Of a DNA stretch of 64,000 nt, positions 7,430 through 62,229 are shown piece after piece. The notes below the pieces were generated by a model. That model searched no databases, had not been told where the DNA came from, and was given only the letters and a program-made list of their open reading frames with translations. Each line of letters starts with the position of its first letter. Position 1 is the stretch's first letter. Source of the stretch: Candidatus Providencia siddallii (GTDB taxonomy: Bacteria; Pseudomonadota; Gammaproteobacteria; Enterobacterales; Enterobacteriaceae); NCBI GenBank assembly GCA_001457715.1, contig CVRF01000001.1, positions 62,001 through 126,000 of the forward strand. The letters are read 5' to 3'. The position numbers and the translations under genes were made by a program.

Positions 7430-8404
7430 TTATTTTACAAGTTTAGGTACAAGATATCCAGACACTTTGCTTAATAATAATTTTATTAGTTGTTGTGCTT
7501 CTGCGTTAGTAACTAAAAAATGAGCTGCTCCATTAACTTTATCTAATAGATGTAAATAATAAGGTAAAATACCTGCATCAAATAAAGCATTACTTAAGTT
7601 TAACAAATCATGAAAATTATCGTTTATTTGTCGTAATAAAACGCTTTGATTAAATAAAGATACACCAGAACGTTTTAGTTTTTGCATAGCAATAATTAAT
7701 AAATCATTAATTTCATTGGCATGATTTATATGAGTAACCATAATAATTTGTAATCTGGAACAAGAGAATATTTCGCATAATGTATCAGTAATACGTTCTG
7801 GAATAACAACAGGTAATCTTGTATGAATTCTAAGTCGTTTTATATGTAAAATATTTTCAATTTTATTGATAAGCCAACTTAATTCATAATCTTTTGCCAT
7901 TAATGGATCACCACCTGATAAAATAACTTCATCTATTTTAATATTATTTTTTATATAATTTATAGCAGCAATCCAATTGCTTTTATTTATTCTATTATTT
8001 CTATAAGGAAAATAGCGACGAAAACAATAACGACAATTCACTGCACAAGAATTTTTAACTAACAATAATACTCTATTGTGATATTTATGTAACAACCCAG
8101 GTATTTTATTATTATGTTCTTTATTCGGATCAACAGAAAAACCTAAATGAGTTTCAAGCTCAGCTTTAACAGTAAGTACTTGTAGTAATAAAGGATCTAA
8201 TGGGTCTCCTTTTTTCATTCTATAAAAAAAAGATAATGGTACACGTAAAGGAAAACGCTTATAGTTATTAATACCACCATTTAAAATTTGACGATCTTTC
8301 AAATTAAGTAATTGTAATAATTTATTTGGATCAGTAATTGTTTTTGAAATTTGTTGAATTCAATCATCTTTATATAAAAGATTTCTAGATATTAATTTTA
8401 TCAT
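7430..8404 (-). pseudogene. epmB: EF-P lysine 2,3-aminomutase EpmB, interrupted by an in-frame TGA
   Basis: This is a radical-SAM, PLP-dependent aminomutase that makes (R)-beta-lysine for EF-P modification. The cluster motif CAVNCRYCFRR, SGGDPLMA and the C-terminal SGYLVPKL are intact. Homology does not begin at the longest open frame, which starts at TTG 8302-8300. It runs upstream without gaps to ATG 8404-8402 ([14 protein letters not shown], then the stop, then IQQISKTITDPNKLLQLL). The single in-frame TGA (8362-8360) falls exactly where E. coli has Trp15. Without readthrough, only a restart inside the gene, such as the TTG, could yield a product, and it would lack 34 residues. The catalytic part is undamaged, so the gene may still work or may be newly inactivated. 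It is divergent from efp, as in E. coli. Confidence 0.8.
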
Positions 8405-8442
8405 TTTTATATATGTTATTCATTTATAAATTAGAGGTTTTA

Positions 8443-9012
8443 ATGGCTACTTATAACACTAATGAATTTCGCTCAGGATTAAAAATTATATTAGATAAAG
8501 AACCATATGTAATTATTGATAGTGAATTTGTTAAACCAGGTAAAGGTCAAGCATTTGCGCGTGTACGAATCCGTAATATTATTACTAATAAAATTTTAGA
8601 AAAAATTTTTAAATCTAATGATTATGTTGAATCTGCTGATATTTTAGATATGAATTTAACTTATTTGTATACAGATAATAAATTTTGGTATTTTATAAAT
8701 AAAAAAACTTTTGAACAATTAGCAGCAGATAAAAAATCAGTTGGTTATAACGCAAAATGGTTAGTTGAACAAATAGATTGTATAATAACATTATGGAATA
8801 GTTACCCTATCATTGTTACTCTTCCGCATTTTGTTGAGTTAAAAGTTATTAATACTACACCTTGTTTAAAAGGTGATACAACAAGTGGAGCTTGTAATAA
8901 ATTAGCTACTTTATATACTGGAGCTACTGTTAAAGTACCTTTGTTTATACAAAATGGAGAAAAAATCCGTATAGACACACGATCTGGTGAATACGTTTCT
9001 CGTGCAAAGTAA
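8443..9012 (+). CDS. efp: Translation elongation factor P
   Basis: The protein has 189 residues, close to the usual 188. EF-P enters the ribosome next to the P-site tRNA and relieves stalling at proline runs. The start is ATG 8443 ([11 protein letters not shown]), with TAGAGG upstream; an in-frame ATG 30 nt earlier would add ten residues unlike the family. The modified lysine is kept: K34 in [10 protein letters not shown]. In E. coli EpmB makes the beta-lysine and EpmA attaches it. Here epmB carries a stop, and epmA is absent from its usual place beyond frdA. Confidence 0.97.
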
Positions 9013-24522: not shown

Positions 24523-24705
24523 ATGGCTGTACAACAAAATAAACCAACTCGTTCAAAAAGAGGTATGCGACGATCACATGATGCTTTAACAATTACTCTA
24601 CTTTCTATAGACAAAACATCCTGTGAAAAACATTTACGACACCATATAACTAAAAATGGTTACTATTTAGGTTGTAAAGTTATCAAAAAAATAAAATTAT
24701 TTTGA
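24523..24705 (+). CDS. rpmF: 50S ribosomal protein L32
   Basis: The protein has 60 residues (E. coli 57). [21 protein letters not shown] is essentially identical to E. coli, and HLRHHIT is kept. SD AAGGAA is well placed. It ends in TGA (24703-24705), one of the few TGA stops in the window. That stop overlaps the TTG start of plsX. Conserved rpmF-plsX-fab linkage couples ribosome and membrane synthesis genes. Confidence 0.97.
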
Positions 24706-29907: not shown

Positions 29908-30927
29908 ATGAAATTAAAGCAAAAATTTTTTTTAATTTTACTATTTTTAATAACTATACTATTTTTACTATGTAGTAGTATTTTAAAATATAGTAAAAAA
30001 AAAATAAACATAACACAAGAAAAAATATTTACAATACCTATTGGTATTGGAAGAATTACTCTAGAATCTTTATTAATTAAAGAAAAAATTATTAATAAGA
30101 ATTATAAGTTTCAATTGTTATTTAAAATATGTCATAAACTATCTAAATTAAAAGCTGGAACATATAAATTTCAACCAAATATGACAATAAAAGATATTTT
30201 ATTATTAATATCAAAAGGTGATGAAGCTCAATTTTCTGTATGCTTTATTGAAGGTTCTCGTTTAATAGAATTGATTAATGTTTTAGATAATACACCATAT
30301 TTAAAACACGAATTACAAAAAATGACTCAATTAGAAATTTTCTCTAAGATTGGTTTTAAAGAAAGCAGTAAATTAGAAGGATGGATATACCCTGACACTT
30401 ATTTTTATACTGCAAATACAATAGATATCAGTATCTTAAAACGTGCTTATCATCGTATGAAAATTATTCTTAACAAAGAATGGCAAAATCGCGATAAATT
30501 TTTACCATATAAAACTGCTTATGAAATGTTAATTTTAGCATCTATAATTGAAAAAGAATCTAAAATAAATAATGAAAAAACACAAATATCTTCAGTATTT
30601 ATTAACAGATTAAGAAATAAAATGCGTTTACAAACTGACCCTACTGTTATATATGGAATTGGTGATAAATATGATGGTAAAATTTATAAAAATGATTTGA
30701 ATAATTACACAGAATATAATACTTATAAAATTCATGGTTTACCTCCAACTCCTATCTCTATGCCAAGTATATCGTCAATTAAAGCAGCAGCACACCCTGC
30801 TAAAACAGAATATTTATATTTTGTTGCTAATAACAAAGGTGGGCATACATTTAGTAAAAATTTAAATGATCATAATCATTTAGTTAAACATTTACGCGAT
30901 ATAAAAAATAAAACTAAAAAAGCATGA
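29908..30927 (+). CDS. mltG: Endolytic murein transglycosylase
   Basis: This 339-residue protein (E. coli YceG 340) is a membrane-anchored enzyme that cuts nascent glycan strands. One N-terminal membrane helix (about 5-25) precedes a LysM-like region and the YceG domain. Catalytic Glu lies in LASIIEKES, and [12 protein letters not shown] is conserved. It ends in TGA, and the last four bases (ATGA) overlap the start of tmk. Confidence 0.95.
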
Positions 30928-52687: not shown

Positions 52688-54260
52688 CAATCACGTAATT
52701 CCATAATAATTATCTGGTTAAAATATTACACAACAAATGTTTAAATTAATAAAAAATTTTTATTTATTTTTAATAAACTAAATTTAATTTAAATGATTTT
52801 ATTATTTTATTTATATAAATTTTTAATAAATAAAATGTAATTAACTATATTTATTTTATATAAAAAATTCAATTTTATTAAATTTAATATCAAAAAATAT
52901 ATTTAATATTTTAAATTACATATAAATAAAAAACTTTTATTCAGTAATAACTATTTGTATTAAAATCACTTCATTGGATAATTTAATAAAAATATATTAT
53001 TAATTTTTATAGTTTTTGAATATTAAATATAATTAACAGATATTATTAATTTAGATTTTAGATTTCAGATTATATATAAAAATTATATTTTTTTATGTTA
53101 TAATTAATTATCTAATCGATAAAAGTTTTATATCTGAATATTAAAAATAAATATAATTAACCATTTATTGAAAAATAAAAAATTAATATGAAATTAATAA
53201 GACATCTGATACAAATTTTTTAAACAATTTATTAAAAATAATTAACTAAAGATTAATTATAACTATTTTAATTACTAATTTTATATTAAATATATTAAAA
53301 TTCAAATATTTAATAATATAAAACAAAATATAATATAAAATATTTATACATTTTATATGTATATTATTGTGTACAATGATATAATATAAAAAAATATTTT
53401 AAAATATTAAAATAAACTTATTTAATAAGTAATTATATTTATAATTTTTTGAATATTCATTTTATTCAAATAAATTATTTAAATTAAAAAAAATAATATT
53501 TTATAAAAAACTTTTTAATAAATTAATTTAAAAATTTAAATCAATTATTGAGATAATGATAGTGATTGATAATGATAAATATCATAAAATATATAAATAA
53601 GTTTAATTCTTATATAGTGATGTTAAATTATTAATCTTTAATAAAATTGATTACGCAATAAATAACATAATCATTTAATACGATAGAATAAAAAAATATG
53701 TTTGTGTTTAAGAAAAACAACATTGGTTGTTTACTTGAACTTAAATGCAACGATAGTAATTTTAACATAAAATGTACTAATTCTACAGAATTTGACAATT
53801 GGAGATAGGATAGTTACTAGTATCTTGTAAGATATGTTATATTTTTTTAAAAGATGTTTAAAGACAAATAATAAAAGATTTAGTTCTAATTATTTTATCT
53901 TTAACAAAAAAATATTATTAATTTTTATAAAATATTTAAATAAAAATAAATTATTAATTTAGTATAGTAAAATTTAAAATAAATTAACAATATAATGTAA
54001 TTTATTAATTACATTTATTTATTATAAATAAAAATTATTATACTTATTTTTAATTAAATCGATTTTAATTTATTAAAAAGAACAATAAAAAACTATTTAA
54101 TAAATATATTAATAATTTTTCAATAAAAATATAATATTAAATAATAAAATGTAAATGCTATAAAAAATAATTTATAAAATTATTTTTTATAATTAAATTT
54201 AAACTAAATCTACAAAATTAAAATAAACTATTAATTTTGTAATCTAAAAGATAATGCGTT
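52688..54260. other. 1.6-kb spacer with an atypical island
   Basis: There is no recognisable gene. Most is A/T only. The part at about 53540-53860 is less biased. It contains GATAATGATA twice (53552-53561 and 53568-53577), resembling Fur-box half-sites. It also has an isolated 36-codon frame (53698-53808) and TTGACA (53792-53797) with TACTAG 17 nt later. In E. coli lptD and lgt are far apart, so this is a rearrangement joint that may contain the remains of one or more genes. Confidence 0.4.
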
Positions 54261-61056: not shown

Positions 61057-62229
61057 TTATATTTTTAATAGATAAAGATTTCCGTTTATTGCTTGAACGA
61101 TTAAGTTATCAAAGGCTACAACTGGTCTACTCTGAATTCCAGAGCTATCTAATTTATTTTGTGCAACAGACTCTCCATCAGTTATATCCAACCAATGCAA
61201 ATATCCTTTTTTATCACCAAAAACTAAATAACCATTAAATATTTCTGCTTCTGATAAACCTCTGTTTAATAAATTTTCTTTTGTCCATAAAATCACACCA
61301 TCTGTTTTACGTATAGAAAATATGCGATCATTTATATCTATTAAAAAAATGTTTTCACCGGAAATAATCATATCATTAACAGAAGATATTTCACGTTTCC
61401 AAATTGATTTTCCTGAATATATATCTAGCGCTGATAAAACATTATTATAAGAAACTATGTAAATTCTGTCATAATCAACAATAGGAGTTACATCAATATC
61501 GTTAATTTTAGCAATTTCATTTGTAGTTGTTATCTGAGAAATTTGTTTTTGCCAAATAATTTGTCCTTGAGGCATTAATACAGAAGTCACAATTCCGTTA
61601 TCACCACCTATTATTAAAGTTCCAAATGAAATAGTTGGAGATGATACACCTCGTAATGATATAAATGGAGTTCCTATATTTAAAGACCATTTAATTTCTC
61701 CGTCATTTATATCAATCGCTTGTAACTGTCCACTGTTTGTGTGAATGATAACAAGATCATTACTAACAACTGGTTTAGATAATCCTTCACCATCAATATC
61801 TGTGGTCCAGATTACTTTACCATTAGTTTTATTTAATGCAAATAATACGCCTCGCTCTGTAGATATAAAAACTTTATCATTAAAAACTTTTATTCCACCA
61901 GATAAAAAAGCAGATGTTTTTGAACAAAGAAAACAATTATGACTAGATAAATCAGAAATCCAAATTTCTTTTCCATTATCAATTTTTAATGCTTTTACTA
62001 AACCGTTACGATCAGCTGCATAAACTATTAAATTTTCATACGCTGGAGAAAGTTTTGAATAAAAATTTTTTGTACCACTTCCAATTTTTTTATCCCAAAC
62101 AATAATCGGTGTAAATAAATTTTTTGTTTTTGGCAACAAAGAAACGTTATTAGTTTTTTGTATCGATATACAACCAACAAAAAATATCAAAGATGTCAGT
62201 AATACTAAAATAAAAATATATAACCGCAT
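61057..62229 (-). CDS. bamB: Outer-membrane assembly lipoprotein BamB
   Basis: The protein has 390 residues (E. coli 392). A lipoprotein signal peptide ending in FFVGC (lipid-modified Cys about 20) is followed by an eight-bladed PQQ-type beta-propeller with repeated G-x-x-x-W motifs such as GKEIWISDL, GKVIWTTDI, GEIKWSLNI and GKSIWKREI. It assists BamA in folding outer-membrane proteins. It lies between yfgM and der. Confidence 0.95.
   Translation of the reverse strand: MRLYIFILVLLTSLIFFVGCISIQKTNNVSLLPKTKNLFTPIIVWDKKIGSGTKNFYSKLSPAYENLIVYAADRNGLVKALKIDNGKEIWISDLSSHNCFLCSKTSAFLSGGIKVFNDKVFISTERGVLFALNKTNGKVIWTTDIDGEGLSKPVVSNDLVIIHTNSGQLQAIDINDGEIKWSLNIGTPFISLRGVSSPTISFGTLIIGGDNGIVTSVLMPQGQIIWQKQISQITTTNEIAKINDIDVTPIVDYDRIYIVSYNNVLSALDIYSGKSIWKREISSVNDMIISGENIFLIDINDRIFSIRKTDGVILWTKENLLNRGLSEAEIFNGYLVFGDKKGYLHWLDITDGESVAQNKLDSSGIQSRPVVAFDNLIVQAINGNLYLLKI

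Follow-up and report, generated by a model that had tools for sequence, protein, structure and literature searches.

An in-frame UGA at the conserved Trp15 codon of epmB in Candidatus Providencia siddallii and its probable reading as tryptophan

The window analysed here, a stretch of 64,000 nucleotides in total, corresponds to positions 62,001 to 126,000 of one contig (G000:C1:62001-126000) of the Candidatus Providencia siddallii assembly GCA_001457715.1 (hereafter G000), which comprises 843,819 bases on four contigs. The gene epmB, encoding the EF-P beta-lysylation protein EpmB, lies on the reverse strand (7430..8404) and consists of 324 codons plus a TAA, with one in-frame TGA at the codon of the conserved Trp15 (8360..8362, minus strand; the forward strand reads TCA) that is followed by A (TGA-A). 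Fourteen codons starting with an ATG at 8402-8404 are located upstream of it (8363..8404, minus strand), and the longest epmB frame under the standard code begins with a TTG at residue 35 (7430..8302, minus strand). On the forward strand, an open frame of 199 amino acids follows (8413..9012), which from its sequence and the gene order is presumably efp, coding for the EpmB target EF-P. When TGA is translated as Trp, the protein of 324 amino acids reaches 454 bits with the EpmB model TIGR03821 of NCBIfam (cut-off 369), the match beginning at residue 15. Within the window genes that could be aligned to references, the epmB TGA is the sole interior TGA; a further TGA match at window position 52693 was dropped, because it is situated just upstream of a start codon.

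EpmB matches were obtained in 48 of the 60 relatives searched, including G000 and its sole genus-mate found among them (G001; 755,758 bases, one contig), which we suppose to be a symbiont strain of the leech Haementeria acuecueyetzin or close to one. The codon for residue 15 was compared in 30 fetched epmB loci from these 48 genomes and was TGG in 28 and TGA in two of them, G000 and G001. Hence, the in-frame TGA at Trp15 noted in the preliminary description was borne out, with TGG in 28 of the 28 other relatives, whereas its option of a fresh nonsense mutation is not supported, given the TGA at the identical codon in G001. The epmB gene of G001 carries a second TGA at codon 177, another conserved Trp. 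One in-frame TGA was also seen in epmB of G029 (G029:C1:4677147-4677941; 5.1 Mb, 49% complete), one of the 18 genomes with a match beyond the 30 compared loci, possibly reflecting assembly errors. Between G000 and G001, the pN/pS ratio of epmB was 1.72 over the 14 codons before the TGA, where no sign of constraint is visible, 0.79 over codons 16-35, indicating weak constraint, and 0.40 over the whole stretch after the TGA. The terminal TAA (7430..7432, minus strand) ends the gene 16 residues before that of G001, which has a sense codon there; the window epmB is without the C-terminal tail that is present in two other relatives examined (L014, L034). With the first 14 codons unconstrained, codons 16-35 only weakly constrained and the product 16 residues short of that in G001, epmB alone is no proof of readthrough, and for this gene taken by itself a restart from the TTG at residue 35 is possible.

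For a wider comparison, the open frames of a reference relative with a 2-Mb genome (G009; 26% GC in its sample) were used. The sample of G000 amounted to 564 kb, i.e. 67% of the assembly, of which 190 kb could be aligned to G009 and 286 kb to G001; interior TGA codons were examined in these reference-aligned parts of the sampled stretches. Opposite Trp residues of G009, 471 TGG and two TGA codons were found in G000, the latter in epmB and in apbE (G000:C2:70816-70818, residue 127 of 345); one other TGA, opposite a Cys of G009, was dropped, being situated upstream of a start codon. The comparison with G001, in which the automatic filter missed epmB so that its site was entered by hand, added a TGA in rimM (G000:C2:57609-57611, residue 107 of 181), where we take the residue to be Trp from E. 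coli RimM. The total of TGA codons at Trp positions in the G000 sample is thus three. ApbE scored 321.7 bits, which is below the curated cut-off of NF007774 (498) but above that of PF02424, and RimM 156.5 bits (cut-off 66.2). A Trp is aligned with the TGA of epmB in 28 relatives and with those of epmB and apbE in G009, which is different from the UGA at a Cys or Sec position expected in selenoproteins. Purifying selection is evident on either side of the TGA in apbE as well as in rimM: for apbE, pN/pS between G000 and G001 was 0.48 in the part preceding the TGA (124 codons) and 0.25 in the part following it (211 codons), and for rimM 0.49 (105 codons) and 0.39 (72 codons), respectively. A truncation of these genes at the TGA since the split of the two lineages is therefore unlikely, because such genes are not expected to stay constrained downstream. 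Moreover, a gene with an FMN_bind domain (PF04205), a usual target class of ApbE, is located approximately 3 kb from apbE in both G000 and G001, and epmA, the partner gene of epmB, is present; hence, the ApbE and EpmB pathways look kept.

Other stop codons at aligned positions of G000 were counted as well and comprised 15 TAA and three TAG against G009 and 21 TAA and six TAG against G001. As far as examined, those listed against G009 were located in stretches rich in stops, at the ends of genes or in 5' extensions, and only one TAA or TAG was placed opposite a Trp of G009 (L283:8372, stop-rich). Several TGA matches were also discarded: that at L275:4448 lies upstream of a start codon, those at L096:4292 and 4310 precede a purK-like gene, and that at L096:4329 is located past the stop of a purE-like gene; by coordinates, those at L094:8472, L094:8499 and L096:218 are antisense of tRNA genes, that at L280:9034 falls into a stretch with four other stops, and those at L102:6181 and L107:8468 terminate an rnc-like and a nuoK-like gene, respectively, in an overlap with the start that follows (the gene names rnc, nuoK, purE and purK being our presumption). 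In the reverse control with G009 as subject, 475 TGG and three TGA matches were obtained and no TGA at a Trp position was found inside a gene, two of the three being situated after gene ends and one in a stop-rich, apparently ribosomal RNA stretch.

The pattern is much more pronounced in G001. In its sample of 540 kb, TGG occurred at 447 and TGA at 47 positions opposite Trp of the G009 open frames, compared to four TGA codons opposite other residues and to 12 TAA and one TAG opposite any residue. Adding the sites where G000 has TGG, 1006 Trp sites were collected in G001, of which 75 are TGA. Judged from these alignments, G001 is using TGA as a Trp codon alongside TGG. The 75 codons, together with the two further TGA-at-Trp codons shared in apbE and rimM, support the alternative already considered in the preliminary description, namely that the epmB codon is still read as Trp. 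A different outcome, with ordinary codons in the relatives and no other TGA at Trp sites, had been taken there as the mark of a private mutation or a sequencing error; the TGA in epmB of G001 and the cases of apbE and rimM do not fit it. All three sites of G000 are also TGA in G001, and since 53 of the 769 Trp positions compared are TGA in G001, the chance of sharing three out of three is about 3e-4. Conversely, TGG in G000 was combined with TGA in G001 at 50 aligned positions representing 49 distinct codons (one codon was counted twice), and no site with TGA in G000 and TGG in G001 was found in the compared sampled stretches. The simplest account of this distribution would be that the three sites were TGA before the split, that G001 has gained many more since then and that G000 has gained none that we found. 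The TGA at Trp15 of epmB is real, and it is probably an ancestral UGA with the meaning Trp in a genome where UGA is still mostly a stop.

The use of TGA as terminator was evaluated using an automatic call of the stop codons at gene ends. TGA ends 12 of 164 genes in G000 compared to 21 of the 164 orthologs in G009, which is not significantly fewer (p 0.14), and seven of 182 genes in G001 compared to 23 of 182 G009 orthologs (p 0.004). In a smaller first count, TGA was found at the end of 5/112 genes in G000 and 6/123 in G001 versus 16/112 and 16/123 in G009, respectively; the larger sample weakened the difference for G000. From the TGA stops, it takes up to 43 codons in G000 and up to 91 codons in G001 to reach the next TAA or TAG. 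In the window, the two genuine TGA stops cited in the preliminary description do read TGA, at rpmF (24703..24705, plus strand), where the next in-frame stop is the fourth codon after it, and at mltG (30925..30927, plus strand), where the TGA forms an ATGA overlap with the next frame and the next in-frame stop is the tenth codon after it. Its statement that TGA remains a working stop also agrees with the gene ends in our sample, and full recoding is wrong for G000, because TGA still works as a stop there. Three features of the UGA=Trp code (NCBI table 4) are absent in G000 and G001, as TGA is still a stop, a tRNA-Trp with UCA anticodon was not found among the typed tRNAs and RF2 is retained. 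Collectively, a double meaning of TGA seems to apply to G000 as well as to G001. A special base after the terminator TGA was not supported, with T following in 12 of 19 cases versus 45% at TAA.

Regarding the decoding machinery, 33 tRNA matches were obtained in each of the two genomes. With ARAGORN, a type was assigned to all 33 matches of G000 and to 30 of the 33 of G001, including one tRNA-Trp each with the anticodon CCA, and none of the tRNAs thus typed had a UCA anticodon. Two of the three remaining tRNAs of G001 were examined separately, and the last one has 85 bases, the length of the Leu/Ser type. The release factor gene prfB was above the cut-off in all 40 genomes searched, including G000 (G000:C2:119700-120752) and G001. 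Hence, both points of the machinery raised in the preliminary description could be answered for G000, with the CCA anticodon and RF2 being present. RF2 retains the SPF and GGQ motifs in both genomes; G000 and/or G001 deviate at 42 of the positions that are conserved among at least 93% of 30 relatives, and among these 42 nothing visible points to a lost reading of UGA. G000, G001 and G009 lack the programmed frameshift usual for prfB, and the gene is in a single frame from its start. The prfB gene of G001 (L040) contains an in-frame TGA-A at the codon of a conserved Trp, residue 48; the making of full-length RF2 would there depend on UGA readthrough. As a mere hypothesis, this dependence might act as a brake on RF2 and thereby favour more reading of UGA. 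In two small genomes, G008 (G008:C1:28715-29734) and G011 (G011:C1:330649-331674), prfB shows an in-frame TAA, perhaps due to a changed frameshift site.

The nucleotide context of the sense TGA codons in G001 is biased. The base following the 75 codons is A in 59, G in 12, C in three and T in one case, which differs from the bases following 931 TGG codons for Trp in the same genome (A 314, C 145, G 192, T 280; p 3e-10). The A-ending share of pooled AAR, GAR, CAR and TTR codons is 0.963, 0.937, 0.953 and 0.939 when the next base is A, C, G and T, respectively, and with this next-base effect included, in a correction built on base composition and not on a measured mutation rate, 15.9 T are expected after the sense TGA codons of G001, the probability of one or fewer being 4e-7. 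For C, 3 of 75 were observed versus 8.0 expected. After the three sense TGA codons of G000 the next base is A, G and A, a pattern of three sites only. According to the account in passages of PMC5289835, tRNA-Trp misreads UGA most when A follows (citing Engelberg-Kulka 1981), +4U is linked to low readthrough and UGA-C terminates poorly. Misreading by the tRNA hence fits better than weak termination, because UGA-C is a poor terminator and yet C is rare after the sense TGA codons. It might be that UGA-A (or UGA-G) means Trp and UGA-U means stop in the presence of a normal tRNA-Trp(CCA) and RF2, that G000 preserves the ancestral first steps, and that the spread in G001 was driven by its own prfB with the UGA-A at Trp codon 48, RF2 being self-limiting; we put this combined scheme forward tentatively, with a chance slightly below even.

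From these observations we consider it quite likely that UGA is ambiguous in this symbiont, acting mainly as a stop and partly as Trp via the ordinary tRNA-Trp(CCA) that competes with RF2. The codons in epmB, apbE and rimM would have been TGA already in the common ancestor of G000 and G001 and would have been read through ever since, with tRNA-Trp(CCA) as the near-cognate reading tRNA. The A-rich context seen in G001 would make UGA readable, UGA-A thereby becoming a working Trp codon, and full-length EpmB would be made by UGA readthrough at residue 15. G000 might then represent an early or arrested stage and G001 an advanced stage of the same process. Several features of epmB could also be explained by a nonsense mutation with restart, in which translation would end at the TGA and start anew at the internal TTG at residue 35 to yield EpmB, or by a decay of the gene: the model match begins at residue 15, the upstream codons are unconstrained, the C terminus is shortened, and in G001 an ATG directly follows the TGA at codon 15. 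However, restart leaves the mid-gene TGA codons of apbE and rimM with constraint on both sides unexplained as well as the second TGA at residue 177 in epmB of G001, and is therefore regarded as unlikely. Independent recent changes from TGG to TGA in each lineage, tolerated by a basal leakiness of UGA without any ancestral change in decoding, would be in line with the AT-rich genomes (24% GC in the G000 and 22% in the G001 sample), which push TGG towards TGA, but the lack of any G000-only site against the 49 distinct G001-only codons and the sharing of all three sites make them very unlikely. The possibility that a sequencing or assembly error produced the TGA base in epmB is next to negligible, because TGA is also found at this codon in the separately assembled G001, whose EpmB is 67% identical to that of G000, and because apbE and rimM show the same pattern.

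A further candidate for the source of UGA reading is the tRNA-Trp itself, which might have become a suppressor of the Hirsh type. In G000 (L193) and G001 (L192) it comprises 75 nt with a D loop one base longer than in 28 aligned relatives (74 nt), which could alter the bending of the tRNA and drive the reading of UGA. Changes in the D arm and the hinge of tRNA-Trp are known UGA suppressors, as stated in sections of PMC11805395 and PMC13092985. However, counted by eye, the longer D loop was present in seven of 20 further relatives (G007, G011, G040, G041, G054, G055, G059), i.e. in 7 of 48 others overall, and variation of the D loop is seen in further tRNAs of G000 and G001, too. In the numbering of tRNA positions that we assume here, the tRNA-Trp of G000 and G001 keeps G24, A9 and the C27-G43 pair, such that neither G24A or A9C nor an unpaired 27-43 was found, and the anticodon stem has five pairs. 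Moreover, the context pattern already fits an unmodified tRNA-Trp, and a suppressor-type tRNA is hence quite unlikely as the driving force in comparison with the reading by an ordinary tRNA-Trp(CCA). Two of the relatives with longer D loops, G007 (L323) and G011 (L325), are small genomes, and the tRNA-Trp of G000 has a U-G pair at 28-42, again in our presumed numbering.

The change from UGA to Trp is of a kind already known, and the new parts would be the early stage and the context dependence. In 2023, Manzano-Marin et al. reportedly described an alternative genetic code with UGA as Trp in the Providencia symbiont of the leech Haementeria acuecueyetzin, very likely the same symbiont lineage as G000, which is presumably the Haementeria officinalis strain described in 2015; compared to that symbiont with its changed code, G000 has three sense TGA codons found and has kept TGA as an ordinary stop. 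Readthrough of UGA by the wild-type tRNA-Trp(CCA) is similar with regard to the CCA anticodon, the presence of RF2 and, as seen in G001, the favouring of Trp by an A after UGA. Likewise, RF2 is present in the species with known readthrough of this type. In contrast to such readthrough, the UGA codons of the symbionts are situated within genes that are conserved, and they have persisted while the lineages diverged for long. The gammaproteobacterial endosymbiont XS4 resembles G000 and G001, as interpreted here, in reading UGA as Trp while retaining RF2 and having tRNA-Trp(CCA) only, but its tRNA-Trp has a 4-bp anticodon stem instead of five pairs and, unlike G000, it most likely uses the UGA=W code throughout, according to excerpts of PMC12213064. 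Two-meaning codons sorted by context are likewise described for ciliates in PMC4967479, however, these are eukaryotes without a dedicated stop codon, whereas G000 and G001 keep TAA and TAG as stops. In their main texts, neither the Codetta screen (PMC8629427) nor a 2026 survey on short anticodon stems in tRNA-Trp (PMC13092985) mentions the name Providencia. According to the former, UGA received no call in some species for which less than four columns were aligned; thus, the three sites of G000 could escape notice. A literature search covering titles and the beginnings of abstracts, with few subscription papers, found no report of sense UGA in G000 nor of a context rule in this lineage.

Two routes are disputed for the reassignment of stop codons, one in which the codon falls out of use first (codon capture) and one with a stage of double meaning (ambiguous intermediate). 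If the proposed reading is true, a pair of related genomes that differ in their stage but both possess the old stop machinery, together with a context rule in agreement with the tRNA behaviour that has been reported, would make the ambiguous-intermediate route directly testable, and the pair may show the gradual change of a stop codon into an amino-acid codon. Furthermore, sense UGA codons, if few, may go unrecognised in genomes annotated under the standard code; in G000, apbE and rimM would be truncated by standard gene calling. As a separate observation, a gene at L100:11442-13886, by appearance presumably clpB, contains TAA codons and matches poorly over its initial portion, as though only a shorter form had been kept.
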